Positions 17,312 to 51,477 of a stretch of 57,635 bases of DNA are shown here, in pieces. Within the stretch, counting starts at the first letter, position 1; each line of letters opens with the position of its first letter. The position numbers were made by a program, and so were the translations under genes. Source of the stretch: a virus. The notes beneath the pieces are model-generated. The model was not told the origin of the DNA, ran no database searches, and saw only the letters and a program-made list of their open reading frames with translations. The stretch covers positions 1-57,635 of the IMG/VR virus record IMGVR_UViG_3300042898_002419. The stretch is one strand, 5' to 3'.

Positions 17312-17427
17312 GCCACCTCCACCACGTGATATCGACTGTAGGGATAGTTGGCCTGCAACCACTCAATCATGCCCGGTTCCCAGGGCAAAAACACAGTGCG
17401 AGCTTGGTTGGAAATGTACTGTTTCAT
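17308..17427 (-). CDS. 39-residue coupled small protein
   Basis: Begins M-K-Q-Y-I-S-N-Q-A-R and contains T-V-F-L-P-W-E-P-G-M-I-E-W. Its ATG overlaps the folE stop and its TGA overlaps the HIT start, both as ATGA. No other frame explains the 113-base gap. Function unknown. Confidence 0.6.
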   Translation of the reverse strand: MKQYISNQARTVFLPWEPGMIEWLQANYPYSRYHVVEVA

Positions 17428-33545: not shown

Positions 33546-36500
33546 TTACTGTGTTTTGATAATGCTGGCCATGAGTCTGAGTCTACTTTCGTGGACTGCT
33601 TGGGCTGACTGTTTGGCATCCTGATCAAACTGTTTCTTTGTGGCCTTGACAATTCCGCTGAAGCGACGATCACCAGTTTTGCGATCACCTGCGGAATCAG
33701 CAGCAGTGGCAGCAGCACCGGCTTTGGTTTTGTATCTGGCAAGAGTAGCAGGGCTGAGTTCGTCTAGTTGTTTATTATCGGTTGCTGCGTCTTGCTGACC
33801 TGTTAGTGCTTGCAGCAATGCTCTAGCAACCACACGATCTTTTTCTTGTTCATCGTCAGGCAACTGATCATAGTCAATGTTCATCAACTTTGCTCGTTGT
33901 TGAAGTTTTGCTTCTAGTTTGCCAGCGGCTCGTAATTTTTCTGTGTCATCAAATTGTTCAGGATTTTGCACAAATGCTTGAGCAGTGGTATTCCAACCTT
34001 GGTGAATGGCATCGCTGATGGCTTCGATGTCTGTGACGCCTTGATCAATCATTTGTTTGGCATACGCAGCTGATTTCAAGTTTGCTTGCCATCCAAATGT
34101 GTTGCCAGGGCTACTACGACCATATCCGTATGCAGTATCCAGTGCTTCGTCACTGACAGTTGCCAGTTGTTGTACGCTTAACTGCTGGTCATTGCCTTCC
34201 GACACACCTCTACCTAGTTGTCTTAGATCAGATGTCAGCACTGTTTTTGTAGTGGCACTGGACGGAATTGTGATACGAGCATGCTCTCGGTCCCGGCTCA
34301 TGTCAACCACTTGTGCTTTTTGGTCAATGTACCGTACTGTGTCACCTATCTGTATCTTTTTCATGGACACACCGCCAAGATTGACTGGTCGATCACCTGC
34401 ATAGTTACCGTGGGCTTCTGAGATATCCTGTTCGGTCATTGAACTCATTTCAATGTAGCCTTTTTCTTGTGCGTCACTCCATCTGGCCCATTCACGATTA
34501 TCTATTGACACTGTGGTTCTACCTGTAGTACCGGAGTACTCTGAGTTGTCATCGTACTTGGAACTGTTGATATCATCTACTGCTTGTGACCACTGTTTCT
34601 TATCATCAAAGAATTTTTTAGTTGGTGCTGATGGCAAATTGATGCCACGAGTTCCACCCATGTGATCCACATCAAACGGGAAGCTGCCTTTGAAGTTGTG
34701 GGCTTCTGCTATGCCTTGCTCGGGCAGTTGACCCGCAGGGCCTGCCATTTTGTTTCTTGCGCCGCGCTTGATTTTGTATTCACGGTTGGGACTAGTCAAC
34801 TTCATATTACCCATGATCTCTCGGGCTTGGGCCACACTGTGATATGTTCCTTCTTTTTTGCCATCTCTATAAATGCTATACACATACTCTGCATCAGGAG
34901 TGTGTCCCAAGGTGTAGTTGACAGATCCATCTGCGGCTGAGCCTTCCGCCACACCTTGCTGTTTAAGTTTAGCAGTAACTACTGGATTCTTACTTGTACC
35001 AAATCTTGCTACTGCTTTCTTGATTGCTTGTTCTTTAGTGCCACTGAAAGTCATAGTGTGTGATGTGCCACCTGTCTTGGTGCCAACTGTAACTACCCAC
35101 TGTTGATCAGAGCCTTCCGCCACGCCTTGAGAAGCATTCTTTGAAATTTTGAAATACTTTTGTCCCTTGACAATATCAACTACATCCAACAGCCCTTTTT
35201 TATACAGGTAGTAATCAGTACCTTCCATTCCAGCGACCCCACCTGGGCTTCGGGGATTTGGATCAATACCTGCTGCTCTTAACATATCTGCACGACTGCG
35301 AACTTTTCCATCCTGCATCACTCTCAATACTTTTTTCATTTTATCATTGATTGTGTTTGGAACTTTGGACAACCAAGAATCATAATTTATCTTGAGTTTG
35401 CCTTCCGCCATGTCTTGCTCTCCATCAGAGCTAAGAATAGATTCTAATTCATCTACTATTTTATCATATTGAGGTGTGCCGTCAATTTCCTCGGGATTAG
35501 TGATAACTCCAGTTACATAAACCATTGCTCTATAGAACTCAGGGCTATCATCAACTGCGGCCTTTACTTCAGGAACAGTTTTATAGATTTGAACCATCTT
35601 TCTTGCCAAGCCACGGTATTTGTTATTAATGTCTATTACTGTGCCTTCCGCCACACCCTGCTCATCCAACTCATCATCTGTTCCCATGCGGTCATCTTCG
35701 AGTCCTGCTATGTCTGCTGCACCGCCTGCGTCTCCGGCTGTTTGTTGTATGGCCGACCATAGGCGCAGTGGAGCAACCAGATCATCACCGCGAAATTCAA
35801 TGTGGTCACCAAAGCGATCCATCACAGCATAGTAAGCAGGTTCAGAGTCAATGAAAAATTTCACTTCATCATCAGATCTGGCACCCTGCAGATTGTCTTG
35901 CGATTCAAATTGGTCTGCATCTTTAGCGACTCTACGCTCACTGCCTTGAGCAGGGAAACCTTGTTGTGATTGTTGGGTCGGTTGTTGAATTTTTTGTGCT
36001 GCTGGATTGGATAATTTTGCTGCTGCTGCTTTTGTTTGAGCGATGGTCATCCAGGTGTTTCGCTGTCTACTGTCCATGGGTTGACCTCGTTCTGCAACCA
36101 TTTGGGCGTAAATTTCTTTAGCCAGGGCATTTACATCTTGATTTTGTTGTATGCGAGGATCATCTCGACGCATATTAAAAAGGTCAGACGTGGTATCTTT
36201 GGCCATGACTTGCTCGTCTAAATTCCTAAAAAAGCCGTGCCATATTTTGTTGCCATTATTGACATGTATGTCTGTTATCATAAACCCTGTATTACTGATG
36301 CCCAGGTCTTCCAACCAAGAATCAAATTCAAAAATAGCACTATCTTGATCTCGACGAGCCAATTGAGTAAACCGTTTTTGGTCCACATCTGCCAGCCACT
36401 TGTTTCCCAGGCCAGATCTTACAGAATTTAGTAGTTTAATTAATTCTTCATCAGTTAGTTTAAAAACGCCACCGTCTCCACCGCCATTACCATCGTGATT

Positions 36501-37049
36501 GCTATCACTGCTGGGTGCAAATTCGTTTAATCGGCCTTTTGCCATACCTTGCTCTTTGAGAGCACCGTAATTTTTTAGTAGCATGTTAGCGCCCTGAACA
36601 AAATCAGCATCAATTTGATACAGCATTTTTACTAGTTCTTGGTGTTGGCGAGCAGCCAGGGCCGGTTCAGGACTGTAGGATCTGTTACCTGACATTATTC
36701 TATTAGATGCAGTGTCACGAGAACGTGCAATACGATCATATTCTTTTCTAAATTCTGGATTTGAAAAACTGAATTTATCTGCTGTGCTCCGCACTCGTTG
36801 ATATTCAGCTCTTGCTGCTGGGTTTTGAAGCTGTGCGGGACCACCTGCTGGTGCTACTGGAGTTGACCCCATTGGCGGTTCTGTTGCGTCATCATCATCA
36901 TCTGTTGCTGTTGCTGGTGCTGCTGCTGAAGTGTTTACACCTGGTAAGTTTTGCAAGTTTGGGTAAATTGGATTACCGTTGGCGTCAAAGGTCACACGTT
37001 CCGTTAGGTTGTCGGTGGAGTTAGGTTTGAAAAATTCGTCAAGTATCAT
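33546..37049 (-). CDS. 1167-residue modular protein with repeated QGVAEG-type linkers
   Basis: Starts M-I-L-D-E-F-F-K-P-N. Residues ~35-60 are Ala/Asp rich. Eight linkers divide it: E-Q-G-M-A-K-G (166), E-Q-G-V-A-E-G (463), E-Q-D-M-A-E-G (544), S-Q-G-V-A-E-G (640), Q-Q-G-V-A-E-G (697), E-Q-G-I-A-E-A (777), E-Q-D-I-S-E-A (873) and G-R-G-V-S-E-G (946). Most segments between them are 50-90 residues and unrelated to each other. No enzyme motif was recognised. V/M/I-x-Glu before Gly/Ala fits the T4 prohead protease rule, so this may be a polyprotein cut during capsid maturation. Internal ATG/GTG starts were not needed. It ends I-I-K-T-Q. Confidence 0.75.
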   Translation of the reverse strand: MILDEFFKPNSTDNLTERVTFDANGNPIYPNLQNLPGVNTSAAAPATATDDDDDATEPPMGSTPVAPAGGPAQLQNPAARAEYQRVRSTADKFSFSNPEFRKEYDRIARSRDTASNRIMSGNRSYSPEPALAARQHQELVKMLYQIDADFVQGANMLLKNYGALKEQGMAKGRLNEFAPSSDSNHDGNGGGDGGVFKLTDEELIKLLNSVRSGLGNKWLADVDQKRFTQLARRDQDSAIFEFDSWLEDLGISNTGFMITDIHVNNGNKIWHGFFRNLDEQVMAKDTTSDLFNMRRDDPRIQQNQDVNALAKEIYAQMVAERGQPMDSRQRNTWMTIAQTKAAAAKLSNPAAQKIQQPTQQSQQGFPAQGSERRVAKDADQFESQDNLQGARSDDEVKFFIDSEPAYYAVMDRFGDHIEFRGDDLVAPLRLWSAIQQTAGDAGGAADIAGLEDDRMGTDDELDEQGVAEGTVIDINNKYRGLARKMVQIYKTVPEVKAAVDDSPEFYRAMVYVTGVITNPEEIDGTPQYDKIVDELESILSSDGEQDMAEGKLKINYDSWLSKVPNTINDKMKKVLRVMQDGKVRSRADMLRAAGIDPNPRSPGGVAGMEGTDYYLYKKGLLDVVDIVKGQKYFKISKNASQGVAEGSDQQWVVTVGTKTGGTSHTMTFSGTKEQAIKKAVARFGTSKNPVVTAKLKQQGVAEGSAADGSVNYTLGHTPDAEYVYSIYRDGKKEGTYHSVAQAREIMGNMKLTSPNREYKIKRGARNKMAGPAGQLPEQGIAEAHNFKGSFPFDVDHMGGTRGINLPSAPTKKFFDDKKQWSQAVDDINSSKYDDNSEYSGTTGRTTVSIDNREWARWSDAQEKGYIEMSSMTEQDISEAHGNYAGDRPVNLGGVSMKKIQIGDTVRYIDQKAQVVDMSRDREHARITIPSSATTKTVLTSDLRQLGRGVSEGNDQQLSVQQLATVSDEALDTAYGYGRSSPGNTFGWQANLKSAAYAKQMIDQGVTDIEAISDAIHQGWNTTAQAFVQNPEQFDDTEKLRAAGKLEAKLQQRAKLMNIDYDQLPDDEQEKDRVVARALLQALTGQQDAATDNKQLDELSPATLARYKTKAGAAATAADSAGDRKTGDRRFSGIVKATKKQFDQDAKQSAQAVHESRLRLMASIIKTQ
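34941..34961 (-). repeat. QGVAEG linker repeat, copy in 1167-residue protein
   Basis: Plus-strand GCCTTCCGCCACACCTTGCT begins here; encodes Q-Q-G-V-A-E-G. It is the reference form of the repeat. Confidence 0.85.
35112..35132 (-). repeat. QGVAEG linker repeat
   Basis: One base from the reference form over its first 16 positions (CACGCC for CACACC); encodes S-Q-G-V-A-E-G. Confidence 0.8.
35400..35420 (-). repeat. QGVAEG linker repeat, DMAEG variant
   Basis: GCCTTCCGCCATGTCTTGCT; encodes E-Q-D-M-A-E-G. The outer bases are kept and the middle codon pair differs. Confidence 0.75.
35643..35663 (-). repeat. QGVAEG linker repeat
   Basis: GCCTTCCGCCACACCCTGCT; encodes E-Q-G-V-A-E-G, one silent change from the reference. 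Confidence 0.85.
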
Positions 37050-37050
37050 G

Positions 37051-37731
37051 TTATGCTTCTTCTATGTAATCTGCTGAGGAATTTCTGGCAGCATTTTTTC
37101 TATGTGCCTGAAACATTCTCACGGCCATGTCTGCTTCATCCAGACTTCTGAACCGACTGGGCAACACCCGACCCAGATGACGGATTTCAAAACCGCGCAC
37201 CTGATCGCCATAACATTCCAGGCATGTGCCATCTTCCAGAGTGATAGTTTTTACAGGACCAGCTTCGGCCATCACAGGGTTGATTGTGGGCGGCGGAACA
37301 TAGTCTTCACCGCTGGGTTCGTCTTGAGTGGGGTCTTCCGACACTTCTTGATCGTCGGCCTTGGCTGGATTACGGTCTTGTATTTCTTTGCTGGCCTTGC
37401 GTTCTAGTTCTTTTTTCTTGTCTTCCAGTTGATCCAGATACTGTGTAAGGTCTTTTCTGACCCGGCTCAGCATGTCTTCGTCAATCTCGGCCATGCGTTC
37501 GGCCAGTGCAGTCTGAGTGGGTACCACATCATCTCCTACCATGTACCGGCCAAAGGGTTTGGATTGCTTGTTGCTGCCCAGCACCGGAGACACCGTTTCA
37601 GGCTTGAACAAGGCCGGCAATTGTGGCACTGATTTTTGTTGTGCGTTGAGTCCCGATTTTGTTTTGACAGGAGTAATGTCTGACTCTATCACAGCCAGAC
37701 GTTTTAGTATATTGGCGATGCTGTTGCTCAT
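37051..37731 (-). CDS. Charged virion-type protein with linker-like sites
   Basis: 226 residues. I-L-K-R-L-A-V-I-E-S near the start, a Lys/Glu coiled coil at ~75-120, D-D-Q-E-V-S-E-D-P, V-M-A-E-A-G-P-V, and a folded C-terminus (G-D-Q-V-R-G-F-E-I-R-H-L) ending Y-I-E-E-A. The V-I-E/S, V-S-E/D, M-A-E/A and I-E-E/A sites all fit hydrophobic-x-Glu cleavage. No family recognised. It is coupled by ATGA to the Dps gene and sits two bases before the 1167-residue gene. Confidence 0.65.
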   Translation of the reverse strand: MSNSIANILKRLAVIESDITPVKTKSGLNAQQKSVPQLPALFKPETVSPVLGSNKQSKPFGRYMVGDDVVPTQTALAERMAEIDEDMLSRVRKDLTQYLDQLEDKKKELERKASKEIQDRNPAKADDQEVSEDPTQDEPSGEDYVPPPTINPVMAEAGPVKTITLEDGTCLECYGDQVRGFEIRHLGRVLPSRFRSLDEADMAVRMFQAHRKNAARNSSADYIEEA

Positions 37732-38168
37732 GCTCTATTGTCTTTCAGATAACTACGCAATTGCCAATGATATTTTCCATGCTGACTTAGACGTCCTGCC
37801 ACAAAGTCAGCAATACCCTGTTGATTTTCTTGTTCTGCTTCGGCAAAGCACTGATTCAACAGATCAATCATTTGTTGATTGTTGGCCAACAGTTCTTCAA
37901 TCATGAGTCGAGCACGTGGTATTTTGGTCTGACCTGAAATTTGTGTAAGCTCGCCAAAACGTTCAAAACTGGCCGGTGCATACTCGTCAAGATATCTTAT
38001 GTACTCGGCAACAGGATCTACGGCTGAATACGCATCTTGGTAGATGTTCTGGAAAAAATCATGCAGTTCGCCAAAGTCCGGCCCTTCCACATTCCAGTGA
38101 AAGCCCTGGGCTTTTAGATAGTAGGCAAAGTTAGTTGCCAATAGAGTTTTTAAACTGTCCGCGAGCAT
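37728..38168 (-). CDS. dps: Dps-family ferritin-like protein
   Basis: 146 residues of a four-helix bundle. N-F-A-Y-Y-L-K-A-Q-G-F-H-W-N-V-E-G is the Dps first-helix signature with the His/Glu iron ligands; F-G-E-L-H-D-F-F-Q-N-I-Y and V-D-P-V-A-E-Y-I-R complete the ferroxidase site. Dps stores iron and shields DNA from oxidants. AGGA precedes ATG 38168. Placed among probable packaged proteins, it may protect DNA in the virion or the injected genome; that is inference. Confidence 0.85.
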   Translation of the reverse strand: MLADSLKTLLATNFAYYLKAQGFHWNVEGPDFGELHDFFQNIYQDAYSAVDPVAEYIRYLDEYAPASFERFGELTQISGQTKIPRARLMIEELLANNQQMIDLLNQCFAEAEQENQQGIADFVAGRLSQHGKYHWQLRSYLKDNRA

Positions 38169-38343
38169 TCTTGTTCCTTTTGTATTCCTTGGGCGTGTTA
38201 GGCGTAGGATCTGTAGAGTATTTACCTGTCAACAAGGAACCACCTGATCTTGCGACCATGCCCATGGGCTGGCTTACAGTGGCCATGCTGCCCGTCCCAC
38301 TGGTACCCACCGAGATGTCTTCCATTATTTCATATGCTCTCAT
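38131..38343 (-). CDS. Small protein with capsid-targeting-like start
   Basis: 70 residues starting at ATG 38343, M-R-A-Y-E-I-M-E-D-I. The start resembles the T4 capsid-targeting peptide (M-K-T-Y-Q-E-F-I-A-E), as do 40419 and 39344. The remainder is Gly/Ser rich, then P-T-P-N-T-P-K-E-Y-K-R. It overlaps the Dps start by 38 bases. Function unknown. Confidence 0.6.
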   Translation of the reverse strand: MRAYEIMEDISVGTSGTGSMATVSQPMGMVARSGGSLLTGKYSTDPTPNTPKEYKRNKNARGQFKNSIGN

Positions 38344-38632
38344 TTTCAATCCTTAACAGTGAGTTTTTTACTATGCGTGAGTTTACTGGACCTTCTGCAA
38401 TTCTCACGTTTTTCACTTCAATTGTGCCGCATGCTGGCGGAACTAATTCCCAACGCAGTTCGTACTTGCCTGGCGCAGCCCAGATCTGCAGAAATTCTTC
38501 CAGATACTGTTCTCTCCAGACCCAGGTTCGTTCTGCAAACAGTTCATTGTTCACATACACTCTGTAGTTGGGATCAGCTCCAGTCCAGTCCACACTCACG
38601 TCTGCTTTGACTATCACAAACTGGCGGGTCAT
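38330..38632 (-). CDS. Small beta-rich protein, possible carbohydrate-binding fold
   Basis: 100 residues. Y-R-V-Y-V-N-N-E-L-F, Y-E-L-R-W-E-L-V and V-K-N-V-R-I look like beta strands of a jelly-roll. It resembles 47530-47964 in plan (G-M-E-I-W-I-D-N-Q-K-L-F). I recall similar small proteins from aquatic phages, possibly virion decoration or ligand-binding. No enzyme motif. Confidence 0.6.
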   Translation of the reverse strand: MTRQFVIVKADVSVDWTGADPNYRVYVNNELFAERTWVWREQYLEEFLQIWAAPGKYELRWELVPPACGTIEVKNVRIAEGPVNSRIVKNSLLRIENESI

Positions 38633-38652
38633 TGCGACACAGTCAGATCAAA

Positions 38653-39342
38653 TTAGGCCGCAGCGGTATCAGACGGTGCCAAAGCCACTGCGTTGGCCAC
38701 ACGACGGTCAGTATGCAGTCCAGCACTGCGTTCATAGAATTTGTCCATTATTTCAGCAGCAGCGGCTGCTGATTGTGCAGCTTTTAATTTATTGCCCGCT
38801 GCTTTTTCTGTGTTGTTGAATTCCCACTGTATGAATTCCAATTGATCTTGAAGACTGGATCCTTTTATAGGCCTGCCCATTTGTGCTTGAAAATCTTTCT
38901 GCCGTGGTGGGTGCCATTGAGCAATACCGTATGCTTGGCCGCCATCGCCCACGGCTGCTGGATTGATATTTTTGCCTGACTCGGCCTGCAGATTGCCAAC
39001 AATGCCCGCGGCCTGTGCTGCTGACCAACCCTGTTGTGTAAAGAACTTCAGGGCCGTGGCTGCATTGGCCGATGATCCGGCTGCTGTGGCAGGTGCAGTT
39101 GTTTGTCCGCGAGCAAATTCTCCCAGATTGGGCAATTTTATTTTGCTGCCCACAGTTATCTGCCCAGTGGCAGGAATGTCCGGATTCATGTAAAGCAGGC
39201 CGGACACAGTGGTGTCAGAGGCCTTGGCCAATTTTTCCAGAGTGTCTCCTGCTTGCACAGAATACATTTTGCCCGGCACACTAGGATCCACAGCCTCGGC
39301 TAGAACTCTACTGCTGCGAGGCAAAAAATCACAAGATTTCAT
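38653..39342 (-). CDS. LysM plus phage-tail-type lysozyme protein
   Basis: 229 residues. V-L-A-E-A in the first 20 is a possible cleavage site after a leader. Residues ~26-72 form a LysM domain (Y-S-V-Q-A-G-D-T-L-E-K-L-A ... I-K-L-P-N-L). From ~95 F-T-Q-Q-G-W-S-A-A-Q-A-A-G-I-V-G-N-L-Q-A-E-S and Y-G-I-A-Q-W-H match the Phage_lysozyme2 family that cuts peptidoglycan. Probably virion-associated, opening the wall at entry. GGA lies seven bases before the ATG. Confidence 0.85.
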   Translation of the reverse strand: MKSCDFLPRSSRVLAEAVDPSVPGKMYSVQAGDTLEKLAKASDTTVSGLLYMNPDIPATGQITVGSKIKLPNLGEFARGQTTAPATAAGSSANAATALKFFTQQGWSAAQAAGIVGNLQAESGKNINPAAVGDGGQAYGIAQWHPPRQKDFQAQMGRPIKGSSLQDQLEFIQWEFNNTEKAAGNKLKAAQSAAAAAEIMDKFYERSAGLHTDRRVANAVALAPSDTAAA

Positions 39343-39343
39343 G

Positions 39344-40375
39344 TTATCCTTTTAGCAAGGTGCTCAGGCGACGCATGCGGCTCACACTCTCTTCAAAATT
39401 TGATTCACGCACTGGGTTTGCCGGTGCTGCGGCATTCTGGCGATCCCATGCAGCCTGTGCAGCGTAACCAGTACTTGGTCTCGGAGTAGCTGGTTTTGGT
39501 GCACCGCTGGTGCTGTGTGTTTTACCATACTGTTGATCCCATGCCATCTGTGCAGTATAACCAGTGCTTGGTCTTGCTGGCGCATACATGGGGTTGCGAG
39601 GCATTGTATTAGTAGGGCCTAGTTTTTCGTTTGCCGGTGGTGTGGCATTCTGTGCCATTTGTGTAGCTGTAGGACCACCGGCACCACCACGACCGCTGCC
39701 TGCATCACCAGGTTTTGCAGCAGACAGAATAGCACCGGAAGTGTTGGGTCCAATTTTACCGTCAGCAGGGAGGCCATTCTTTTGTTGAAAGGCCTTGATA
39801 GCTGCTGTGTCAGGTTGGCCATTCTTGTAAAGTCCCATACTGCTGGCATATCCCAGGATGGCTGGGCTGATTGTGGAACGGGCAGGTGCTTTGGCAGGAG
39901 GTGTAGTGGTTTGCACAGTATTTGCAGTATTTGCAGCATTTGCTGCCACGGCTGCATCCACACCAGTCACATTGTCAGGCTCACCACTGGCTGCCACAGC
40001 ATCAGCAACCGGAGTTGCTGCTGGTGCCGCTGCTGGTGCTGCTGCTGGTGCTGCTGCGGGTGCTGCTGCGGGTGCTGCCGCAACTGTTTCACCAGGTAAT
40101 GGTGCAGGCAGTCTTGCCATGATATATTTGTCCATGGGATCCGCACCACCCAACCACTTTAGTTGGCTTGGTGTGAGACTGGCTCTTGCTGTGGCTGCAT
40201 CAGGATACGGTGTTGCTGCCTGGGCTCCACCACCAAGTGCGCTGGCAATTTTTCTACCAAAGCCCTTGATGGAATCCAGGTTTTTTGCACCTTGTGCTTG
40301 TTGTGCTGCAAATTCAGCATCTGTCATTGGTGTGCCATCGCGCCCGGCTTCGTTTAAAAATTCACTTGATCTCAT
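39344..40375 (-). CDS. Ala/Pro-rich protein with peptidoglycan-binding domain
   Basis: 343 residues from M-R-S-S-E-F-L-N-E-A, a capsid-targeting-like start with cleavage likely after L-N-E. AGGA precedes ATG 40375; the longer frame is rejected. Residues ~130-170 form an A-A-P tandem linker. G-Y-A-S-S-M-G-L-Y-K-N-G-Q and A-I-K-A-F-Q-Q-K-N-G-L are a PG_binding_1 fold. Two near-identical R-P-S-T-G-Y segments follow. It lies next to the lysozyme and likely works with it. Confidence 0.75.
   Translation of the reverse strand: MRSSEFLNEAGRDGTPMTDAEFAAQQAQGAKNLDSIKGFGRKIASALGGGAQAATPYPDAATARASLTPSQLKWLGGADPMDKYIMARLPAPLPGETVAAAPAAAPAAAPAAAPAAAPAATPVADAVAASGEPDNVTGVDAAVAANAANTANTVQTTTPPAKAPARSTISPAILGYASSMGLYKNGQPDTAAIKAFQQKNGLPADGKIGPNTSGAILSAAKPGDAGSGRGGAGGPTATQMAQNATPPANEKLGPTNTMPRNPMYAPARPSTGYTAQMAWDQQYGKTHSTSGAPKPATPRPSTGYAAQAAWDRQNAAAPANPVRESNFEESVSRMRRLSTLLKG
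39442..39574 (-). repeat. Direct repeat, two 40-bp imperfect copies
   Basis: Copies 39442-39481 and 39535-39574 share most bases and encode R-P-S-T-G-Y-x-A-Q-x-A-W-D twice, in the tail of the PG-binding protein. Confidence 0.8.
40020..40079 (-). repeat. 12-bp tandem repeat coding A-A-A-P
   Basis: About five units of GGTGCTGCTGCT and close variants (plus strand) encode a flexible Ala/Pro linker. Length is prone to change by slippage. Confidence 0.85.
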
Positions 40376-40410
40376 AGTTTTTCCTTTTTCGGATAGTCCG
40401 ATTTGTTGTT

Positions 40411-40418
40411 TATTTATT
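40411..40418 (-). promoter_or_regulatory. T4-type late promoter element
   Basis: AATAAATA on the minus strand, right after the stop of 40419-40856 and 36 bases before ATG 40375. Confidence 0.45.
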
Positions 40419-40856
40419 CTATTTGCCCTGTGCTGCCAATCTTGCACCATTGTTAAAGCTGTTGCTGTAGCTCAGGGCACTGCGGTTACCTCGGGCCTTG
40501 GACCAGGCATAACCGGCTCTGTGACCCGAACAATCCTTGGTACAAGGTGAGCCCAGGAAACTGAGTTCATCCAATGGTGTAATCATTGGTTCCCAAGATT
40601 CCCCAGCGTCCCCGGCCTTTTGCTGGACTGCTTGAATAGTTGCCATGGGATATTGTTTTTCAATTTTTTCCATGGCTTGATTATACATCTGAACTTGACT
40701 AACAACATCTGCTGCAGCCAGTGCGGTGTTTAGTCCGGGTATGAAGTAAAGCAATGTGGACAACAGTGGAAATTTATCCTTGAGTTCTGTGTAGGCATTT
40801 CCCTTGACTTCTTGCCCAGCAAATTTTGTTTCATGAATGAATTCACTGGCTCTCAT
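40419..40856 (-). CDS. Small virion-type protein, capsid-targeting-like start and C-S-G-H motif
   Basis: 145 residues. M-R-A-S-E-F-I-H-E-T is close to the T4 targeting peptide, with I-H-E as the likely cut. A central hydrophobic helix (T-L-L-Y-F-I-P-G-L-N-T-A-L-A-A-A) follows. The C-terminus has S-P-C-T-K-D-C-S-G-H-R-A-G-Y, R-S-A-L-S-Y-S-N-S-F-N-N-G, a compact Cys/His/Arg motif I do not recognise as a named family. ATGA couples it to the 1345-residue gene. Confidence 0.65.
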   Translation of the reverse strand: MRASEFIHETKFAGQEVKGNAYTELKDKFPLLSTLLYFIPGLNTALAAADVVSQVQMYNQAMEKIEKQYPMATIQAVQQKAGDAGESWEPMITPLDELSFLGSPCTKDCSGHRAGYAWSKARGNRSALSYSNSFNNGARLAAQGK

Positions 40857-43800
40857 TTGGCTGCTCCAAATACAGGACCGCTCACATACTGTCCCTGTTG
40901 ATTCAGCACGCCAGATCTTAGTTGATCTACCATGGCATCAGTGATGTGTCTGCGACGCATGTGTGGGACAATGATGTGTACTTCCACAGGATCGTTGCCT
41001 TCTTGCTCCAGAATACTGTGCATTCTGTGGCGGCCGTCATGATTACTCACATGTGCCATCTGGCTAAAATCTTCTGATTCCCAGGCTTCAGGAATCACCA
41101 CTGTGAGCCAGGGTGCGCCCACGCCTTTTTCGTCCAGATTCTTTTTGATGTATTCAATGGTCTCACGCTCGTCTGCAGATTTGACATCTAGAGGCAACGC
41201 CAATTCCAAAAACATACTGGGACGCATGACCACTTGCAGGCCTTGATATCCAATTTGTTGATTGTTGGGCACTGCTCCAATGCCCGAGGCATTGTTGATT
41301 TTTAGTTCATTTACAATCTGTTCGTTGGTATCTGAGCCATCGCTCTGAACCGGATACACCTCAGTTGGCACACTGATGCTGTTGGTTCTAACCCATTCAC
41401 CTGCAATTCTATTGGCATCCACTTGACTGTTGCCTATGCCGCCAAATCTATACAATTCTTCTCCGGTGTTGCCATCTACAATTTTCCATTGGCCGTTCCA
41501 GAAGCCTCTGGGTTGTGCTATGGGGATATCTATGTCAATGTCTTGCACTCCAGGAATTGGAGTGGGTGCTGCGGCTGCCTGGCGTTGGCGTTGTAGATCC
41601 AGGGTGCTGCCCGGGATCGGTGCACCAGGCTCTGTTACTGTTGTTCCATCCTCGCGTTCCAGTCGGTACCCGCCTTCACTTGGGTGACTGTAATTGTATA
41701 TTTCCCATCGATCCAGGGCTTCCTCATCACTACCAGCACGGAACGCCATGCGAGCCACGCTGCTTTGTGCATCGCTGATATAATAGTTTTGTGTCTGAAG
41801 AACGGGTCCTGCTAACTCAACACTGAACTCATTGGTATTGATTCCAGGATTTTGTTGTTGCAAGTAACGATTAGCCAGGATCCGTGCTGTGTCGGCATCT
41901 GATGCTGCCACTGTGGTCACTGGCGTGCCTGCTGCATTTTTGACCACATAGCGTTGTCTTGATCCTGAGGTTGCTGCTGGCTCCTTGGTTGCTGCCGGCT
42001 CCGGAGCAGGATTCTTTTTCAGGCCACGTTCCAGCTGTGCCTGTTTCACAAAACTGCGCAGAGCAGCCTTGGGTATTTTGCCAGCCACATAGTCCACAAA
42101 GTAACGGATTGTGCTGTCGTCCTTGCTGTCAGCAGTCAGCAACTTGTACAATTTCTTCTGATACTCTTGACGATACTTTTCAGGATCAACCGCAGCATCC
42201 AGAGCCACAACAAATCTCAACAGGGTAGGTTCAATCAGGTCAAAGTTGTCACCCAACCAGTCGCCGCCGGGACTGCGGAATTCCACATAGCCGTCTTTGG
42301 TATTGATACTGGTGTACTTGGCAGTGGTGCCCGAGTGAATGGCCTTGGTAGCAAGACTATCCATGTTGGCTTTCATCTTGGTCAACAGTGCAGCCGCAGG
42401 GCCAGGATTTGATCTTATGTTGTCCTTGACAATCTTCATGGCACTCTTGGCATAGGTATTGCCTGCACGACCAAAATTTTCCAGCACTCGCTCGTCACCC
42501 AGCAGCACAGCCAGTTTCACAAAGTCCAGTTTTTCTTGGCTAAAGCCCGGCACACTCACGTTGATGTGCAGACCAGTTGAGTCATTGGTATAACAGCCTG
42601 TGCGATTTGCCCAGGCACGGACCTTGTTCAGATCACTCAGCATTTCATCTATGGGCAAGGGCGGACTCACAAACTCCAGGCCTTGGTCGTCATCACTGTC
42701 AGGATCAAGACTGCCATCGGGTTCAACCACATAGCGTCCGGCCTCGCGGCGCCCACCATGATATCGATCACTGGCATTGACCGGACGGCCAATTGCGTCA
42801 CTGAAGTCGTCGCCTACCTGATTGATGTCAACATTGGATTCGGGGTCAGTGTAGTAGGGCCATGAAATGGTGTATTCACGCAACACATCACTCATTTGGT
42901 CAATACCAATATCATTCAACCAGGTGGATTCTGTCCAGTCACCTTGCATGTCGGATTCGTATACTTCTCGGGCAGATTCATAGATCGAGCTGTCGTCTTG
43001 CGCCAACCATTGTTCTTCAACAAATTCTTCCAGCATTGCACCTGTGCGCTTTTCAATCATTTGATCACGTTCTGCTTCGGGCAGCTCTCGATAGAACAAA
43101 TCTTGTTCCAGTTCTTCACGGGCAGTGGCTTCGGCTTCGCCGCCATCAAACTCGCTGTTGTTCACAACATAGTCACGCAAGAAATCGCGGCCTTCTTCAT
43201 ACCAGCCTTCACTGATCTTTTCAAATTGCCACTGGCGGAAGTCTTCGTACAACTTGTCGTTGAGTCTGCGAATGTCGCCCCTGCTGTTGTAGTCGCCGTC
43301 GTCAAAAAAACGAACAATGTCGTCAATGTCATTGGCAGACTCGTCACGATCCATGTCCTCTTCAGCGTCACCGCCGCCTTCTCCGGGCACAATCATTTCA
43401 AATTCCATACCTGCCAGGGCACCTGTCTTGGCAGCTTCTCGTCGTAGATTCTTGCTGCCCATGTTGATTTCAAACAGGTCCTGTTCTTCAAATAATTCTA
43501 GCTCACGTGCCAGACTTTCTGCCAAGGTGTTGGTGGGTTTCATCAACAGTGCAGGATGTCCCTGTGCGTCTGTTTGCAATCCAAGTTTGTTGGCTTCTTT
43601 GCCCACAGCACCTGGACGCACGTCTCGGGTCAGGGCCATGACAAAGCGAGGATCGCGGGCTTGTTTCTTTGTAGGGATGTAGCCTGATGCTTCTTCTAGT
43701 GTGACACCATCAAACATCTCAGGTTGCTCATCGGCCCAGTCTCGCATGATACGACCTGCCATGGCATTGGCTTGATCTTCATACGGGCTACCTGTTGCAC

Positions 43801-44890
43801 CAGCATCCAAGGGCAACGGCTCGCGCTCGTCCTGTTGACGATGTGTCATTTCATGTGCCATGGTGCGAAGTATGTCCAGCACATGGCGACCCGATGTGGC
43901 CAAGATCAAGGTGTTTGAGTCTGGATCATACTGTCCAAAGCTGCCATTTTCTTGACTCCATTCAGGAGTGGTTTCCAGTCTCAGCTCGGGTGGATTTTCC
44001 AGTTGCAGTTTGTTCACACAGCTGGAATAGAAGCGATTCAAGATTTTTCGAAGTTGATCAGGATCTGTGCTTTCGTCCACCTGTTCGGCTTCGGTGCCAG
44101 CAGGATGATCTTGGCCAGCATAGGCCGTGCCCGGATACCAGTAATCACGCATGCCATAGTTGACTGTTTTTCGTTCACGAGGTCGTGTGTTGAGACTGAG
44201 TTCTTGATCTCTAGCTGCTGTCTTGGCAGCCAGCAGGTCGGCAATGCAGCCTTTATTGCGTAGCAGTTTGAACGCAATGTTTTCGCAGCCAAACTCGCCG
44301 TTTTTCTCCAGACCTGTCTGGCGCATGGTCTTGATCTTGTTCCAGAGCGAGTCTATGGCTTCGAGATTTTTTGTTTTTATGGCAGCATGAATTCTGGCGT
44401 CAAGGTCAGCTGTTTTGCTTTGCACACAGTTGTCATCAATCTTGGCTCGTCGGCGTTGTGGCACCTGCAGCCAGTCAGAGTTTTTTACACTGTAGATGCC
44501 CTGTGAGTGATGTGCTTGATCAGCAGGTTGCACATAGAGTTCTACATCTGCGCCGCCAATGCGAATGTTGTGCGTGTCGTTGTATTGATATTTCTTGGCA
44601 TCAAACAGTTCTTGATACACAGGATCATCGGGCATTTCTACCACCAGATGCAGGTCAATGTCTGAATTTGCAGTGTAGGAATAAGCAGCGTTGGAGCCGC
44701 TGAGTGTGATGTCTACCAGCTTGAGATCATCCACACCCAGAAACTCTCGGAAGTCATCGGCCACTGCCAGCAGTTTTTGTTGAACCTCAGGCAGCAGGTG
44801 CTCGTCTGTGCCCCACAATGCAGGGTTCAGACGGCGATGGAATTTTACAGCATCTGCAAGATTAAAGGAGTTCAGTTCGTTGATGTTCAT
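40853..44890 (-). CDS. 1345-residue multi-enzyme protein
   Basis: Domains by eye: ~60-85 a polymerase-beta-type nucleotidyltransferase (L-S-G-S-N-A-A-Y, then S-D-I-D-L-H-L-V-V); ~343-380 a zinc-protease helix (M-A-H-E-M-T-H-R-Q, third ligand likely Glu371 in Y-E-D-Q-A-N); ~492-900 an amidoligase-like domain (G-M-E-F-E-M, G-L-E-F-V-S-P-P-L, T-G-L-H-I-N-V, V-E-F-R-S-P-G-G); ~1215-1310 a ParB-like segment with N-H-D-G-R-H-R. Between are Glu/Asp-rich and Ala/Pro linkers, with hydrophobic-x-Glu sites at L-E-E/A, V-D-E/S and L-F-E/I. The whole may be packaged and injected. Function is unknown. Confidence 0.7.
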   Translation of the reverse strand: MNINELNSFNLADAVKFHRRLNPALWGTDEHLLPEVQQKLLAVADDFREFLGVDDLKLVDITLSGSNAAYSYTANSDIDLHLVVEMPDDPVYQELFDAKKYQYNDTHNIRIGGADVELYVQPADQAHHSQGIYSVKNSDWLQVPQRRRAKIDDNCVQSKTADLDARIHAAIKTKNLEAIDSLWNKIKTMRQTGLEKNGEFGCENIAFKLLRNKGCIADLLAAKTAARDQELSLNTRPRERKTVNYGMRDYWYPGTAYAGQDHPAGTEAEQVDESTDPDQLRKILNRFYSSCVNKLQLENPPELRLETTPEWSQENGSFGQYDPDSNTLILATSGRHVLDILRTMAHEMTHRQQDEREPLPLDAGATGSPYEDQANAMAGRIMRDWADEQPEMFDGVTLEEASGYIPTKKQARDPRFVMALTRDVRPGAVGKEANKLGLQTDAQGHPALLMKPTNTLAESLARELELFEEQDLFEINMGSKNLRREAAKTGALAGMEFEMIVPGEGGGDAEEDMDRDESANDIDDIVRFFDDGDYNSRGDIRRLNDKLYEDFRQWQFEKISEGWYEEGRDFLRDYVVNNSEFDGGEAEATAREELEQDLFYRELPEAERDQMIEKRTGAMLEEFVEEQWLAQDDSSIYESAREVYESDMQGDWTESTWLNDIGIDQMSDVLREYTISWPYYTDPESNVDINQVGDDFSDAIGRPVNASDRYHGGRREAGRYVVEPDGSLDPDSDDDQGLEFVSPPLPIDEMLSDLNKVRAWANRTGCYTNDSTGLHINVSVPGFSQEKLDFVKLAVLLGDERVLENFGRAGNTYAKSAMKIVKDNIRSNPGPAAALLTKMKANMDSLATKAIHSGTTAKYTSINTKDGYVEFRSPGGDWLGDNFDLIEPTLLRFVVALDAAVDPEKYRQEYQKKLYKLLTADSKDDSTIRYFVDYVAGKIPKAALRSFVKQAQLERGLKKNPAPEPAATKEPAATSGSRQRYVVKNAAGTPVTTVAASDADTARILANRYLQQQNPGINTNEFSVELAGPVLQTQNYYISDAQSSVARMAFRAGSDEEALDRWEIYNYSHPSEGGYRLEREDGTTVTEPGAPIPGSTLDLQRQRQAAAAPTPIPGVQDIDIDIPIAQPRGFWNGQWKIVDGNTGEELYRFGGIGNSQVDANRIAGEWVRTNSISVPTEVYPVQSDGSDTNEQIVNELKINNASGIGAVPNNQQIGYQGLQVVMRPSMFLELALPLDVKSADERETIEYIKKNLDEKGVGAPWLTVVIPEAWESEDFSQMAHVSNHDGRHRMHSILEQEGNDPVEVHIIVPHMRRRHITDAMVDQLRSGVLNQQGQYVSGPVFGAAK

Positions 44891-44907
44891 ACGAACTGTA
44901 TTTACCG

Positions 44908-45831
44908 TTACTCAACAGTAGCAGTTTCTTGCTTGATTTTCTTTCGGCTGCTGGCAATGACCGTGGCTTCCACAGCCACTTCTGGCGCAGCCACTGGTGT
45001 TGCACTGGTGTCCACGATTTGCGGCTGTGCTGCTGCCTGATTGCTCAGAGCCATTTGATGCAGATCTTGATAGAGCTTGTCCTGTGTTTGATAGTCAAAC
45101 ACATAGGTGCCTGTGTGTTTGAGCAACACACGCTTGTCAACCCAGACTTGTCCACCAATATCACGCCAGTTTTCACAGAATGTCCAGTCTTCTGAGTAAT
45201 AGCGATTTTCACGCACTGCTGTGTCAAAGTAGGTTTTCATGTAGATATTCAACACAGGATCAAGTCCAATGTCATTGGTAAAGGATTTTACCGCAGGGTG
45301 AGCATTGAGTTTGTCAAATACATCACGTTTGATCAGCAAAAAGCCTGTGCCAGTTTTGGTAACTTCGATCAGGCCCGACGGATCGTTTTGATCAGCATCA
45401 GGAATACCGTTCACACACCACTTGATTGGCAGGCTCTTCATGGGGTACAGGCCGCCGATCACGTCTTTTTGTGCATTCAACATCACCAACAGGTGCCAGG
45501 GTTCCCAGCCAATGTCAGCGTCGATAAACATCAGGTGTGTGCTTTCTTTGGTGTGCAGGAACTTGGCAGTGAGAGTGTTTCTGGCACGGCTGATCAGACT
45601 TTCATTGGTCATTGTTTCCACTGTCCAGTCAATGCCAAGTTGTCTTGCAACATTGGCCCACTTGATAAAGCTCATGAATGTGCTTTCAGTCAACTGGCCA
45701 CCATAGCAGGGCATGCATATGTGGACTCGGGTGGTTTTCAAGTAGTCAATGTTGACTTGAATACTTTGTTGACCACCATTTTGGTCCACAGGTGATGCGT
45801 TCTGATAAGGTAATTGTTGTTCGTCTGCCAT
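44908..45831 (-). CDS. GT-A glycosyltransferase-like phage protein
   Basis: 307 residues. V-H-I-C-M-P-C-Y-G-G opens, N-E-S-L-I-S-R-A-R-N follows, and M-F-I-D-A-D-I-G-W carries the D-x-D metal site. D-V-I-G-G-L-Y-P and S-E-D-W-T-F-C-E-N-W are typical of phage GT-A proteins. The tail is disordered. It has an upstream promoter and a hairpin covering its ribosome binding site. Confidence 0.8.
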   Translation of the reverse strand: MADEQQLPYQNASPVDQNGGQQSIQVNIDYLKTTRVHICMPCYGGQLTESTFMSFIKWANVARQLGIDWTVETMTNESLISRARNTLTAKFLHTKESTHLMFIDADIGWEPWHLLVMLNAQKDVIGGLYPMKSLPIKWCVNGIPDADQNDPSGLIEVTKTGTGFLLIKRDVFDKLNAHPAVKSFTNDIGLDPVLNIYMKTYFDTAVRENRYYSEDWTFCENWRDIGGQVWVDKRVLLKHTGTYVFDYQTQDKLYQDLHQMALSNQAAAQPQIVDTSATPVAAPEVAVEATVIASSRKKIKQETATVE

Positions 45832-45837
45832 TTGTTA

Positions 45838-45871
45838 CTCCGTAAAATAGTATTTCTATTTACAGAGTATA
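45838..45871 (-). promoter_or_regulatory. Extended -10 promoter and hairpin over the RBS
   Basis: TGTTATACT (-10 TATACT 45871-45866) lacks a clear -35. Arms 45838-45850 and 45856-45867 pair with a few mismatches; the lower arm contains the CGGAG ribosome binding site of 45831. Read-through mRNA could fold it shut, while mRNA started here would lack much of the upper arm. Confidence 0.45.
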
Positions 45872-45891
45872 ACAGGCCACCAGATTTTTTT

Positions 45892-47514
45892 CTACCTGGA
45901 TTCGTCCAGATAATCTGCAGAATCGTCAGCCTGTTGTTTCAGCGACTGAATCTTTGTTTTCAAGCTGGCAATCTCTGCGGCCATGCGTCGAATCTTTTGA
46001 TCCATCTCATGATCATCCACATTGCTGTGCATGAGACTGCGTTGCACCCACTTGTCAAACGCTGATTCAGGGTCTGCTGCCAGGTTGGGATAGTGGCGTT
46101 TGGCATAGTTCTTGATGGCATTTAGTTCAGAGTCATTGGTTTGATTGCTGGCTTCGTTGACACCTTGTGCAATTGCTTCTCTGGCCTGGCGTTCATTTTC
46201 TGCTTTGAATTTTTGTATAGCTTGACTGTCAGTGAGTTGTCCACGATCCAATGCTTGCCAAATTGATAAATCAAATGTAAGAAGTTTTTTTTGTACGGCT
46301 TGTGCAAAACTAAGTTCATTGGTGCCGCGGCCCTGCCAATCAGGCTTCTGGCCCCATACAACTGATATAGACCTATCGTCGGGCAGTGTAATCCTCATAC
46401 GCTCGCCGTAAAATACATATTTACTACCTTGCCAGGTAAAAGCAAGATCGCCATTCACTGTTCGTCCCATGCTCCAGCCATGCTTTTTAATCAAAGCATC
46501 AACTGCGGCTTGATCTGCATTTTCAGCCACATGTGTGTTAGAGACTTCCGCCACACCTTGCTCTTTTATATTAAATATTTTCTTTGCTTTATCATTGAGA
46601 TTGCTGGGTCTAATAAGTTTAGCAGGTATTGTTTTTGCTTGGGACTGTATTGCCTTATGTAGTCTATGGTTGCCATCGAGTATCCAGGCTATTTGATCTT
46701 GCTCATCTACCATTATTAAAATAGGAAATTGTTTAGACACTGTTACTTGATTAACTCTTTCCATTTCTTCTGGGTTACCGTCCCAATGAAGTAGTTTACT
46801 CTTTAGATTATCGTTTATCGGTAAATTTATTTGTTTAATGTGTTTGGTTAATTCTAAAATATCCTGTAGTGTAATTTTATCTGTGCCTTTGGACCAACTT
46901 GAGTCGGCACCGCCTTCCGCCATATCTTGTGCTTCTGCACCCATGGCAGTGTCCAGCATGTCAACCACATTGGCCGCCAACTTGGGATTGCTTTGTGTCT
47001 CAGGATACAGGCTCATCACCAGGGCTGTCTTGCGTTTGGGGTTGAGAGTGGGCCATGCCGATCGTATTTCTGTGGCTGATGTCATACCGGGCCCAAACTC
47101 CACTGTGGGCAGGTAAGCCATGTAGGCATGCTGAGTCATTGGAGCCATGTCATCACTGATGGGTTGCAGATATGCAGGCGTGCCATCTTTCTTGGTAGCA
47201 CCTGCCACAGGAGGCTTGTCAGCGTCTTTTTCACTGCGAACAAAGATCAACTGTGTGTCTGCAGGATTGTAACTCTTGGTAATCTCATCCGCACGGAATG
47301 GGCTTTTGACTTGATAGAACTTTCCAGGAGGAACACCGGCCAGTTGTGCTAGTTTTTCTTTGAGTTTGAACGGAAATGGTCGAGCAGAAGTGTCGTTGGT
47401 GGCCGCTACCTTGACATCAGCGCCAGGAAAAGCCTGCTCAGCAGATTGATACAGTGCTAGGTGGCCTGCGTGAAAAGGGTGAAATCCACCAGGCATGATG
47501 ACTAATTGTTTCAT
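45892..47514 (-). CDS. Cytidylyltransferase-like plus ParB-like protein with QGVAEG linkers
   Basis: 540 residues. Residues 1-~190: M-P-G-G-F-H-P-F-H-A-G-H-L holds the H-x-G-H of nucleotidylyltransferases (NMN or phosphopantetheine type). Linker A-Q-D-M-A-E-G at 195. Residues ~200-315: a ParB-like W-I-L-D-G-N-H-R-L-H-K-A. Linker E-Q-G-V-A-E-V at 318, then a W-G-Q-K-P-D-W segment, linker A-Q-G-V-N-E-A at 449, and a coiled-coil end. The linkers coincide with domain borders. It may be cut into separate proteins after packaging. Confidence 0.7.
   Translation of the reverse strand: MKQLVIMPGGFHPFHAGHLALYQSAEQAFPGADVKVAATNDTSARPFPFKLKEKLAQLAGVPPGKFYQVKSPFRADEITKSYNPADTQLIFVRSEKDADKPPVAGATKKDGTPAYLQPISDDMAPMTQHAYMAYLPTVEFGPGMTSATEIRSAWPTLNPKRKTALVMSLYPETQSNPKLAANVVDMLDTAMGAEAQDMAEGGADSSWSKGTDKITLQDILELTKHIKQINLPINDNLKSKLLHWDGNPEEMERVNQVTVSKQFPILIMVDEQDQIAWILDGNHRLHKAIQSQAKTIPAKLIRPSNLNDKAKKIFNIKEQGVAEVSNTHVAENADQAAVDALIKKHGWSMGRTVNGDLAFTWQGSKYVFYGERMRITLPDDRSISVVWGQKPDWQGRGTNELSFAQAVQKKLLTFDLSIWQALDRGQLTDSQAIQKFKAENERQAREAIAQGVNEASNQTNDSELNAIKNYAKRHYPNLAADPESAFDKWVQRSLMHSNVDDHEMDQKIRRMAAEIASLKTKIQSLKQQADDSADYLDESR
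46543..46563 (-). repeat. QGVAEG linker repeat in 540-residue protein
   Basis: CTTCCGCCACACCTTGCTC matches the reference for 18 of 19 bases shared; encodes E-Q-G-V-A-E-V. Confidence 0.8.
46912..46932 (-). repeat. QGVAEG linker repeat, DMAEG variant, 540-residue protein
   Basis: GCCTTCCGCCATATCTTGTGC; encodes A-Q-D-M-A-E-G. Weaker copies lie at 34194, 34413, 34701, 36534 and 46150. Confidence 0.7.
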
Positions 47515-48513: not shown

Positions 48514-49188
48514 TTATTTAGCCTGTATAGGTAGGGTTTTGTTGATAATTCCCGGACACACCAGACTCAACATCAACAAGAGATCTGGGTCGTCGTGATC
48601 TACAAAATGATGGTCGCGTGTGGCCAATCTGCCGGGACGTTCAAGTTTTTCGCAAAATGCTCTGGGAATTCTAAACAAATCTTGTCGCCCCAGCAGGAAC
48701 TTTTTGACTCGAGCACTGGTGTCCGGATCCCACCATCGACTCTTCAAAAACGTGCGGTACTGATTCACAGGGTTCACCAGCATCACAGTGTCTTTGGGGT
48801 ACACTACCACCGCTTGACCAATCAACCACCGATCAATATATTCAACTTGACTCATGTACTCTAGGGTGGTCAGTTCGTTGGTGTACAAAAACACATGATC
48901 ATACTGAATCATTATTTTGCATGACTTGGGCAAGCCTCGCAGCAGATCGCACATGTTGTGCAAATCACCACGCTGCTGAGTATCTGCCAGAGACGGAGCA
49001 TTTGTGCCAATCCCAATGACATCACCACGGTAGCGACCATAGTAATTTTCCAAGCGGCGGTCAAGATCCGCATGATCAAAACTGCGCATGCACCAGGCAA
49101 ACCTCAGGTAAAACTGCATGCGATACTGATACTGATCAAAAAACAGTCGATCGCGTGGTTCCTGACGGATATCTTTAATCTTGCTCAC
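48514..49188 (-). CDS. Unknown phage protein
   Basis: 224 residues if GTG 49188 is used; TTG 49212 would add eight. GTG overlaps the clpA end and has GGA ahead. It is rich in Arg, Tyr and Asp with a mixed alpha/beta plan: V-I-G-I-G-T-N-A-P, C-K-I-M-I-Q-Y-D-H-V-F-L-Y, V-V-V-Y-P-K-D-T. No known family was recognised. It is translationally tied to clpA. Confidence 0.6.
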   Translation of the reverse strand: MSKIKDIRQEPRDRLFFDQYQYRMQFYLRFAWCMRSFDHADLDRRLENYYGRYRGDVIGIGTNAPSLADTQQRGDLHNMCDLLRGLPKSCKIMIQYDHVFLYTNELTTLEYMSQVEYIDRWLIGQAVVVYPKDTVMLVNPVNQYRTFLKSRWWDPDTSARVKKFLLGRQDLFRIPRAFCEKLERPGRLATRDHHFVDHDDPDLLLMLSLVCPGIINKTLPIQAK

Positions 49189-51445: not shown

Positions 51446-51477
51446 AGCGTTTTGTCCGTGTGGTGTGCTCATAGTTT

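Follow-up and report, generated by a model that had tools for sequence, protein, structure and literature searches.

Why would a phage keep the same 20 nucleotides of DNA, and the same short peptide, between the modules of its long proteins? The question is raised by two proteins encoded in a viral stretch of 57,635 nucleotides (henceforth the window), in which the first-pass annotation had counted eleven copies of a QGVAEG-like linker and had proposed that one repeat acts both as a cleavage site and as a shuffling point. Both reading frames are present, with eleven in-frame copies, eight in the 1167-aa and three in the 540-aa protein (Table 1). The claim that six copies retain the 20-mer at the DNA level also stood (six matches at no more than three mismatches, against 0.01 expected from shuffles), with the restriction that three copies differ from the core by 5–7 bases, so that within the window the DNA is conserved only partially.

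Table 1. Features of the linker-protein region. Positions refer to the window; differences are from the 18-nt core.
Feature	Position	Strand	Details
1167-aa modular protein	33546..37049	-	N-terminus MILDEFFKPNS (T4 capsid-targeting-like); eight linker copies
Linker RGVSEG, aa 947 of 1167-aa protein	34194..34211	-	3 differences; L173 homology ends here
Linker QDISEA, aa 874 of 1167-aa protein	34413..34430	-	7 DNA differences
Linker QGIAEA, aa 778 of 1167-aa protein	34701..34718	-	5 DNA differences
Module SAADGSVNYT...	34722..34940	-	Different left neighbours in relatives; AlphaFold: folded centre, unstructured ends
Linker QGVAEG, aa 698 of 1167-aa protein	34941..34958	-	Identical to consensus; right border of L174/L175 indel
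702-nt segment, three modules and one repeat	34941..35642	-	Absent in L174; another 981 nt instead in L175
Linker QGVAEG, aa 641 of 1167-aa protein	35112..35129	-	1 difference
Linker QDMAEG, aa 545 of 1167-aa protein	35400..35417	-	3 differences
Linker QGVAEG, aa 464 of 1167-aa protein	35643..35660	-	1 difference; left border of segment absent in L174, replaced in L175
Linker QGMAKG, aa 167 of 1167-aa protein	36534..36551	-	3 differences; P1 Glu lost
229-aa protein, LysM and phage tail-lysozyme	38653..39342	-	Start MKSCDFLPR fits CTS pattern
368-aa ORF	39344..40450	-	Internal Met gives T4-CTS-like start MRSSEFLNEA; peptidoglycan-binding domain
145-aa protein	40419..40856	-	T4-CTS-like N-terminus MRASEFIHET
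1345-aa neighbour	40853..44890	-	Nucleotidyltransferase-like start, amidoligase domain
540-aa modular protein	45892..47514	-	Nucleotidyltransferase-like domain, ParB/sulfiredoxin-like cassette, more modules; three linker copies
Linker QGVNEA, aa 450 of 540-aa protein	46150..46167	-	5 DNA differences
Linker QGVAEV, aa 319 of 540-aa protein	46543..46560	-	1 difference; right border of ParB/sulfiredoxin cassette
Exchangeable cassette, ParB/sulfiredoxin-like fold	46564..46911	-	LDGNHR motif; AlphaFold pLDDT 91
Linker QDMAEG, aa 196 of 540-aa protein	46912..46929	-	2 differences; left border of ParB/sulfiredoxin cassette

Across relatives, conservation of the DNA beyond the need of the peptide is very strong, as had been suggested from the window alone. 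A scan of viral contigs gave at least 103 true carriers among the 120 stretches listed, and in these the linker DNA is a sharp-edged 20-nt core between unrelated flanks. The carriers are T4-like phages of lakes, most of them metagenome contigs. One identical 18-mer encodes 103 of the 177 QGVAEG peptides in ORFs of the family. Alanine is encoded by GCG in 166 of the 177 (94%, against 6% elsewhere in the same genes) and valine by GTG in 166 (against 17% elsewhere), while [VIL]AE[GAS] motifs outside the repeats have GCG in only 4 of 45 cases; comparison of synonymous change at orthologous junctions was confined to a single usable pair. A cellular or prophage origin of the repeat was rejected: in GTDB genomes totalling 257 Gb the exact 20-mer turned up just three times, where chance alone predicts about 0.5, and each time as one exact copy in an open frame of a bacterial contig, read as QGVAEG. 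Also rejected were an internal ribosome start at the Shine-Dalgarno-like repeat, in-frame ATG not being in excess downstream, and a DNA hairpin, none being found. QGVAEG was not found in the literature searched, and the 1167-aa protein had no match among named phages. In tblastn searches of INPHARED with single short modules, two gave no match and one matched cyanophages, and a defence-protein library yielded nothing beyond three weak single matches.

Modules are shuffled at the repeat. When genes for different proteins were aligned at 85% DNA identity or more, 75 of 153 internal breakpoints fell exactly at the repeat in both genes, where the shifted-position control had a mean of 1.07 and a maximum of 7 in 1000. 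Nearly all recurrent flanks had two or more partners (49/53 on the left, 36/40 on the right), and the ParB/sulfiredoxin-like cassette has some ten different left and right neighbours across relatives. In close relatives of the gene for the 1167-aa protein whole modules have recently been cleanly lost or replaced at the repeat; on both sides of the 702-nt segment this gene is 95–98% identical between the window and L174 or L175. Breakpoints, flank partners and indels all place the relatives' module borders at the repeat, the check that the first-pass annotation had proposed for its conserved swapping junction. Exchange maps inside the repeat itself: variants of its left edge go with the left module (13/17) and those of its right edge with the right module (23/47), and variants of the core follow neither.

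The peptide is constrained as well. Hydrophobic-x-Glu is intact in 248 of 252 independent linker copies, and the hydrophobic P3 and Glu P1 are the most constrained residues, P1 most strongly (omega 0.03, against 1.53 for Q at P5), all changes at P3 being to M, I or L. The T4 prohead protease rule, claimed at the outset, is followed in part: P3 is V or M, unlike the L/I-X-E preferred by T4 gp21 (PMC9026906), and Glu is missing from QGMAKG in the window and from QGMPKG and QGMTKG in a few relatives, so that at least some linkers would stay uncut. Of the proposed double role, then, the shuffling half is borne out by the borders, and the data are compatible with the cleavage half; that a prohead protease cuts at the linkers we infer.

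Such a protease is encoded by large carriers. Seven large contigs (G001, G002, G004, G005, G023, G024 and G026) have both an S77 (gp21-type) prohead protease and Gp23. The protease was not found within the window, and neither gene was found in the sequenced part of a near-identical 262-kb relative, G021, an incomplete contig that, as synteny with G024 suggests, probably ends just before the head genes. N-termini resembling capsid-targeting sequences (CTS) occur in 33 of 83 carrier ORFs against 3 of 121 conserved genes, by a pattern written after looking at the data, and the three exceptions are themselves cargo-type proteins; the 540-aa protein has no obvious start of this type. Virion packaging of the linker proteins is supported by virion data on homologues. 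The N-terminal 230 aa of the 1345-aa neighbour match a virion protein of Synechococcus phage S-CREM2 detected by mass spectrometry (36% identity, 229 columns), and module homologues are found among the virion proteins in the published proteomes of the cultured cyanophages S-CREM2 (PMC10665884) and S-SCSM1 (PMC9602691), where module borders read ISEG or VSEG.

Marine cyanophages, isolates included, have a parallel linker with the same behaviour, YEPEGE-x-I-x-E. Unrelated to that of the lake phages, it keeps [ILV]-x-E in 107 of 111 copies, and whole segments at this linker distinguish the genomes of the isolates S-CAM9 and S-PRM1. Homologues of a YEPEGE-linker protein occur in 487 phage records, and of three EPEGE-type text matches in the literature none was on phages.

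The explanation that we favour, with a probability of about 0.7, is that the two proteins are polyproteins packaged in the head of a large T4-like phage, and that their prohead-protease sites serve at the same time as recombination junctions. The polyproteins would enter the prohead by way of a short capsid-targeting-like sequence at the N-terminus, or else by assembling with other core proteins; the gp21-type (S77) protease would cut after the linker Glu, between [VMI]-x-E and G/A, and free several small folded domains that would be packed with the DNA and then ejected into the host, where this cargo would presumably have its function. The 20-bp linker DNA would give every module border the same homology in the same frame, and the phage recombination system would join modules within the ~14-bp core AAGGTGTGGCGGAA, whether they come from different genes or from co-infecting phages. 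Joining there would allow modules to be gained, lost or replaced with frame and cleavage site kept.

Alternatively, the chains might be multidomain ejection proteins that stay uncut, the linker being a flexible spacer with DNA identity owed only to junction use. Neither shuffling nor DNA identity needs cleavage, and the copies without Glu and the V at P3 sit well with this account; we nevertheless judge it unlikely, since a mere spacer would not be expected to hold P1 Glu so tightly beside a free P5, to confine P3 changes to M, I and L, or to keep [ILV]-x-E in the unrelated cyanophage linker. We see very little room for a dedicated site-specific recombinase or endonuclease that reads the 20-bp sequence and promotes the swapping of cassettes, with only a secondary part for protein function. 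It would account for the sharp conservation reaching synonymous sites and for exchange inside the core, and a GIY-YIG-like ORF lies near the linker genes (30480–31061). However, the core shows no symmetry, no inverted half-sites and no fold, and none of the scanned window proteins looked like a recombinase. Near matches to the repeat sit in an open frame inside ORFs in 389 of 392 cases, in loci chosen for in-frame hits, unlike in-frame mobile coding elements, which would be expected to insert in any context, intergenic DNA included. Moreover, a second lineage behaves alike with another sequence, and 6–10 bp of microhomology already suffice for T4 recombination (PMC9391042); recombination at the repeat would then be homology-based rather than site-specific. 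A translational pause, with GCG and GTG slowing the ribosome between domains and kept by selection, is highly improbable: GCG, rare in these genes, is indeed fixed in the linker, but so are the common codons CAA, GGT and GAA, one exact sequence being kept and not rarity alone, and the breakpoints would be left unexplained. False joins of unrelated genes by assemblers at a shared 20-mer, conceivable for metagenome contigs, can practically be dismissed, as the same junctions recur in separate metagenomes, those of the window's protein in 3300042890, 3300021141 and 3300001282 and others in L141/L142/L144/L145, and isolates S-CAM9 and S-PRM1 differ by whole segments at the parallel YEPEGE linker.

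We lean towards a broader claim, of a general and previously undescribed device by which T4-like phages evolve. Each lineage would have its own DNA linker (AGCAAGGTGTGGCGGAAGGC in lake phages, TATGAACCAGAAGGTGA in cyanophages), a prohead-protease site and a recombination junction at once, and the linkers would turn head-packaged polyproteins into a shared cassette system of injected effectors. Phage internal proteins are a main source of immediate counter-defence and their diversification is poorly understood; with parts interchangeable at the repeat, a phage can change the cargo that probably enters its host. As the exchange borders are recognisable from sequence alone, cargo modules can be excised from metagenomes as discrete units, and cultured Synechococcus phages can serve to test the claim. 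The linker would also show plainly how two selections can act on one short sequence, on the peptide as a protease site and on the DNA for recombination.

Among known systems, the linker proteins resemble the T4 ejection (internal) proteins IPI-III and Alt in the diversity of the cargo, in [hydrophobic]-x-E sites, in an N-terminal targeting-like peptide with Glu near position 9–10, and in genomes that also encode gp23 and a T4-type protease. There each protein stands alone and is processed mainly at its N-terminal CTS, whereas here many sites join several modules per chain and the DNA of the site is conserved as a junction. In polymorphic toxins (CdiA VENN, Rhs DPxGL) a conserved peptide junction likewise combines a cleavage region with the edge of the exchanged sequence, with one C-terminal cassette and its immunity gene; the cassettes described here are serial and internal, in a phage head protein and with a different protease. 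Rickettsia palindromic elements are also short DNA repeats found within the open frames of unrelated genes, but our repeat is no palindrome and lies at exchange borders, not inserted into intact domains. Polyvalent proteins of phages and conjugative elements (Iyer et al. 2017, PMC5512222) are similarly large and multidomain, with ParB-like, nucleotidyltransferase and other enzymatic domains, and are thought to be injected with DNA. The carriers and their neighbours share the trait of several unrelated domains per long polypeptide, conflict-related ones included (ParB/sulfiredoxin, nucleotidyltransferase, GNAT, amidoligase and others). Processing of polyvalent proteins is ascribed to built-in metallopeptidase domains, unlike the head-protease linkers proposed here, and the available text of that paper has no mention of linkers or shuffling and describes no conserved DNA junction; the linker proteins have no metallopeptidase domain, and the 1345-aa neighbour has a weak match to DUF6782, a putative metallopeptidase (E 7e-4, below cut-off). 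Finally, T4 microhomology recombination (PMC9391042) also uses short exact repeats as its substrate, there for deletion and amplification; those repeats are incidental, whereas the linker is a single sequence kept for many borders, genes and phages.

All eleven linker copies that the first-pass annotation had placed in two ORFs were found at the locus, and a DNA 20-mer matched six times in the window (0.01 expected). A scan of IMG/VR with the peptide EQGVAEG fixed and third codon positions free matched at least 120 stretches, the DNA of which was nearly one sequence, CAAGGTGTGGCGGAAGGC, between mutually unrelated flanks (among the matches listed). Family ORFs, i.e. those with at least one repeat copy at no more than one mismatch, occurred in 102 of 120 loci among the matches listed, plus the window. 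In these ORFs, among the matches listed, 103 of the 177 QGVAEG peptides shared an identical 18-mer, and GCG (Ala) and GTG (Val) were each used in 166, as against 6% of Ala and 17% of Val codons overall in the same ORFs; in [VIL]AE[GAS] tetrapeptides away from the repeat, GCG was used in 4/45. The DNA is conserved beyond what the peptide needs, as had been claimed. The conserved block is sharp-edged and about 20 nt long (229 junctions with mutually unrelated flanks, among the matches listed); near matches lay in an open frame in 389 of 392 cases among the matches listed, a count informative for extra copies only, since loci were picked by in-frame matches.

When the DNA of carrier ORFs from different contigs was aligned, the alignment ends gathered at the repeat, as the proposed shuffling role had predicted: 75 of 153 internal ends (at least 85% identity, among the matches listed) fell at a repeat in both sequences, against a mean of 1.07 (maximum 7 in 1000) with randomly shifted repeat positions, a control that carries the same dependence as the counts, in which pairs share contigs. 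At least two partners were seen for 49/53 recurrent left and 36/40 recurrent right flanks (369 distinct junctions, among the matches listed), such flanks being far scarcer at positions shifted by 150–300 nt. Variants at the first base of the repeat follow the left module in 13/17 cases, those close to its 3' edge follow the right one in 23/47, and core variants follow neither, which places the exchange between modules within the repeat core.

Recent events in the 1167-aa gene are likewise located at repeats. In contig L174, the module before 35643 is fused directly to that after 34941 at about 97.5% identity, and exactly 702 nt and one repeat are missing; L175 has the same flanks with a different 981 nt between them. 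In relatives, the cassette of the 540-aa protein stands next to about ten different neighbours on the left and on the right, mostly joined via the repeat or a variant; in homologues further removed (62% and about 28% identity) the repeat is absent. The AlphaFold model of the cassette is a compact domain filling the inter-repeat space (pLDDT 91), with Foldseek matches to sulfiredoxin and ParB at modest TM-scores. Elsewhere in the window, the QueE-like protein and GTP cyclohydrolase could be a sign that the phage's DNA carries 7-deazaguanine modification.

Linker proteins, modules and other genes (window positions unless a contig or scan locus, L, is named; G021 is the near-identical relative of the window)
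Position	Strand	Feature	Remark
10478-11335		QueE-like radical SAM protein
17424-18122		GTP cyclohydrolase
30480-31061		GIY-YIG-like ORF (by eye)	opposite strand, adjoins cargo cluster
33546-37049	-	1167-aa linker protein
33761-33769		further module border at QLDELSP (L-D-E), common to window and L173-L175	not the DNA repeat, yet fits hydrophobic-x-Glu
34703-34442		module of 1167-aa gene	absent from L174 and L175, present in L173
37728-38168		146-aa Dps/ferritin-type-looking protein (by eye)	within cargo cluster
45892-47514	-	540-aa linker protein
46564-46911		ParB/sulfiredoxin-like cassette	within 540-aa protein, between two repeats
49175-51472		full-length Clp-type ATPase	phrog_4871, E 5e-232
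L207:14172-16148		repeat-bearing protein, same phage	just past window's end, with adjoining repeat-bearing 769-aa ORF
G021:151862-156148		region of these two extra proteins
L217:2758-4857; L218:2767-4881; loci L219-L298		YEPEGE-x-I-x-E proteins	module-border behaviour as window's repeat

T4-type head proteases cut after Glu at L/I-X-E (PMC9026906). The suggested fit of the linker to this rule stands for hydrophobic-x-E, kept in 248 of 252 independent copies among the matches listed, with a reservation at P3, here V or M. P1 Glu is strongly constrained (omega 0.03) and P5 Gln is not (1.53); P3 substitutions are limited to M, I or L, and G, A, E and D predominate at P1'. In G024, a more distant relative (323 kb), the linker DNA has drifted and [VM]-x-E is retained. 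Some copies lack Glu, so cleavage need not occur at all linkers.

A second linker, YEPEGE-x-I-x-E in cyanophage proteins, is probably a parallel system. DNA breakpoints lay at it for 130/480 ends (at least 85% identity, among the matches listed; control mean 1.04, maximum 9), and [VILM]-x-E was kept in 107/111 copies among the matches listed, an upper bound since the search pattern itself requires one I-x-E in each locus. Two isolate genomes, S-CAM9 and S-PRM1, are set apart by entire segments at this linker, and homologues of the S-CAM9 protein occur in 487 phage records. That a second sequence combines the same peptide rule and exchange behaviour favours one repeat acting as both cleavage site and shuffling point, and speaks against a recombinase dedicated to one sequence as the driver of exchange. 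T4 recombines at 6–10 bp of microhomology (PMC9391042); a repeat of 20 bp therefore suffices as substrate, and a special enzyme is unnecessary.

Seven large carriers encode both gp23, the T4 major capsid protein, and an S77 (T4 gp21-type) prohead protease; where compared, their gp23 genes are 70–80% identical in DNA, which shows that these carriers do not form a single recent clone. Neither gene was found in G021 (262 kb), but the G021 contig begins where G024 has the stretch just past its head genes. N-termini resembling the T4 capsid-targeting sequence (e.g. MRASEFVSE, MKINDILES, MILDEFFKP) start 33/83 carrier proteins versus 3/121 conserved genes, by a pattern defined after inspection. Virion mass spectrometry of cyanophage S-CREM2 detected ORF156, ORF160 and ORF154 (PMC10665884): ORF156 is homologous, at 36% over 229 columns, to the N-terminal part of the 1345-aa protein in the window, ORF160 has a module in common with a G021 repeat protein (80% over 41 aa) and ISEG at the module border, and ORF154 is a cytidylyltransferase starting MKNFSSFLTEAD. 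The virion protein list of S-SCSM1 includes ORF91 (MKSFLQFLKEAAES) and ORF29, whose module borders carry VSEG/MTEG/VSEG, with its authors' caveat that the suspension may retain leftover non-structural proteins (PMC9602691).

We infer that the repeat's DNA identity is best explained by upkeep through use, in which each exchange would reassemble the junction out of two copies, and a copy that had drifted would drop out of exchange. The predicted cleavage at the linkers would release single modules, which may then act in the host. A search of literature outside most subscription journals turned up no serial internal cassettes joined by a single protease-site linker with conserved DNA. Head-packaged cargo and polyvalent proteins are already known kinds, and in polymorphic toxins the region that is swapped is bordered by a cleavage motif.
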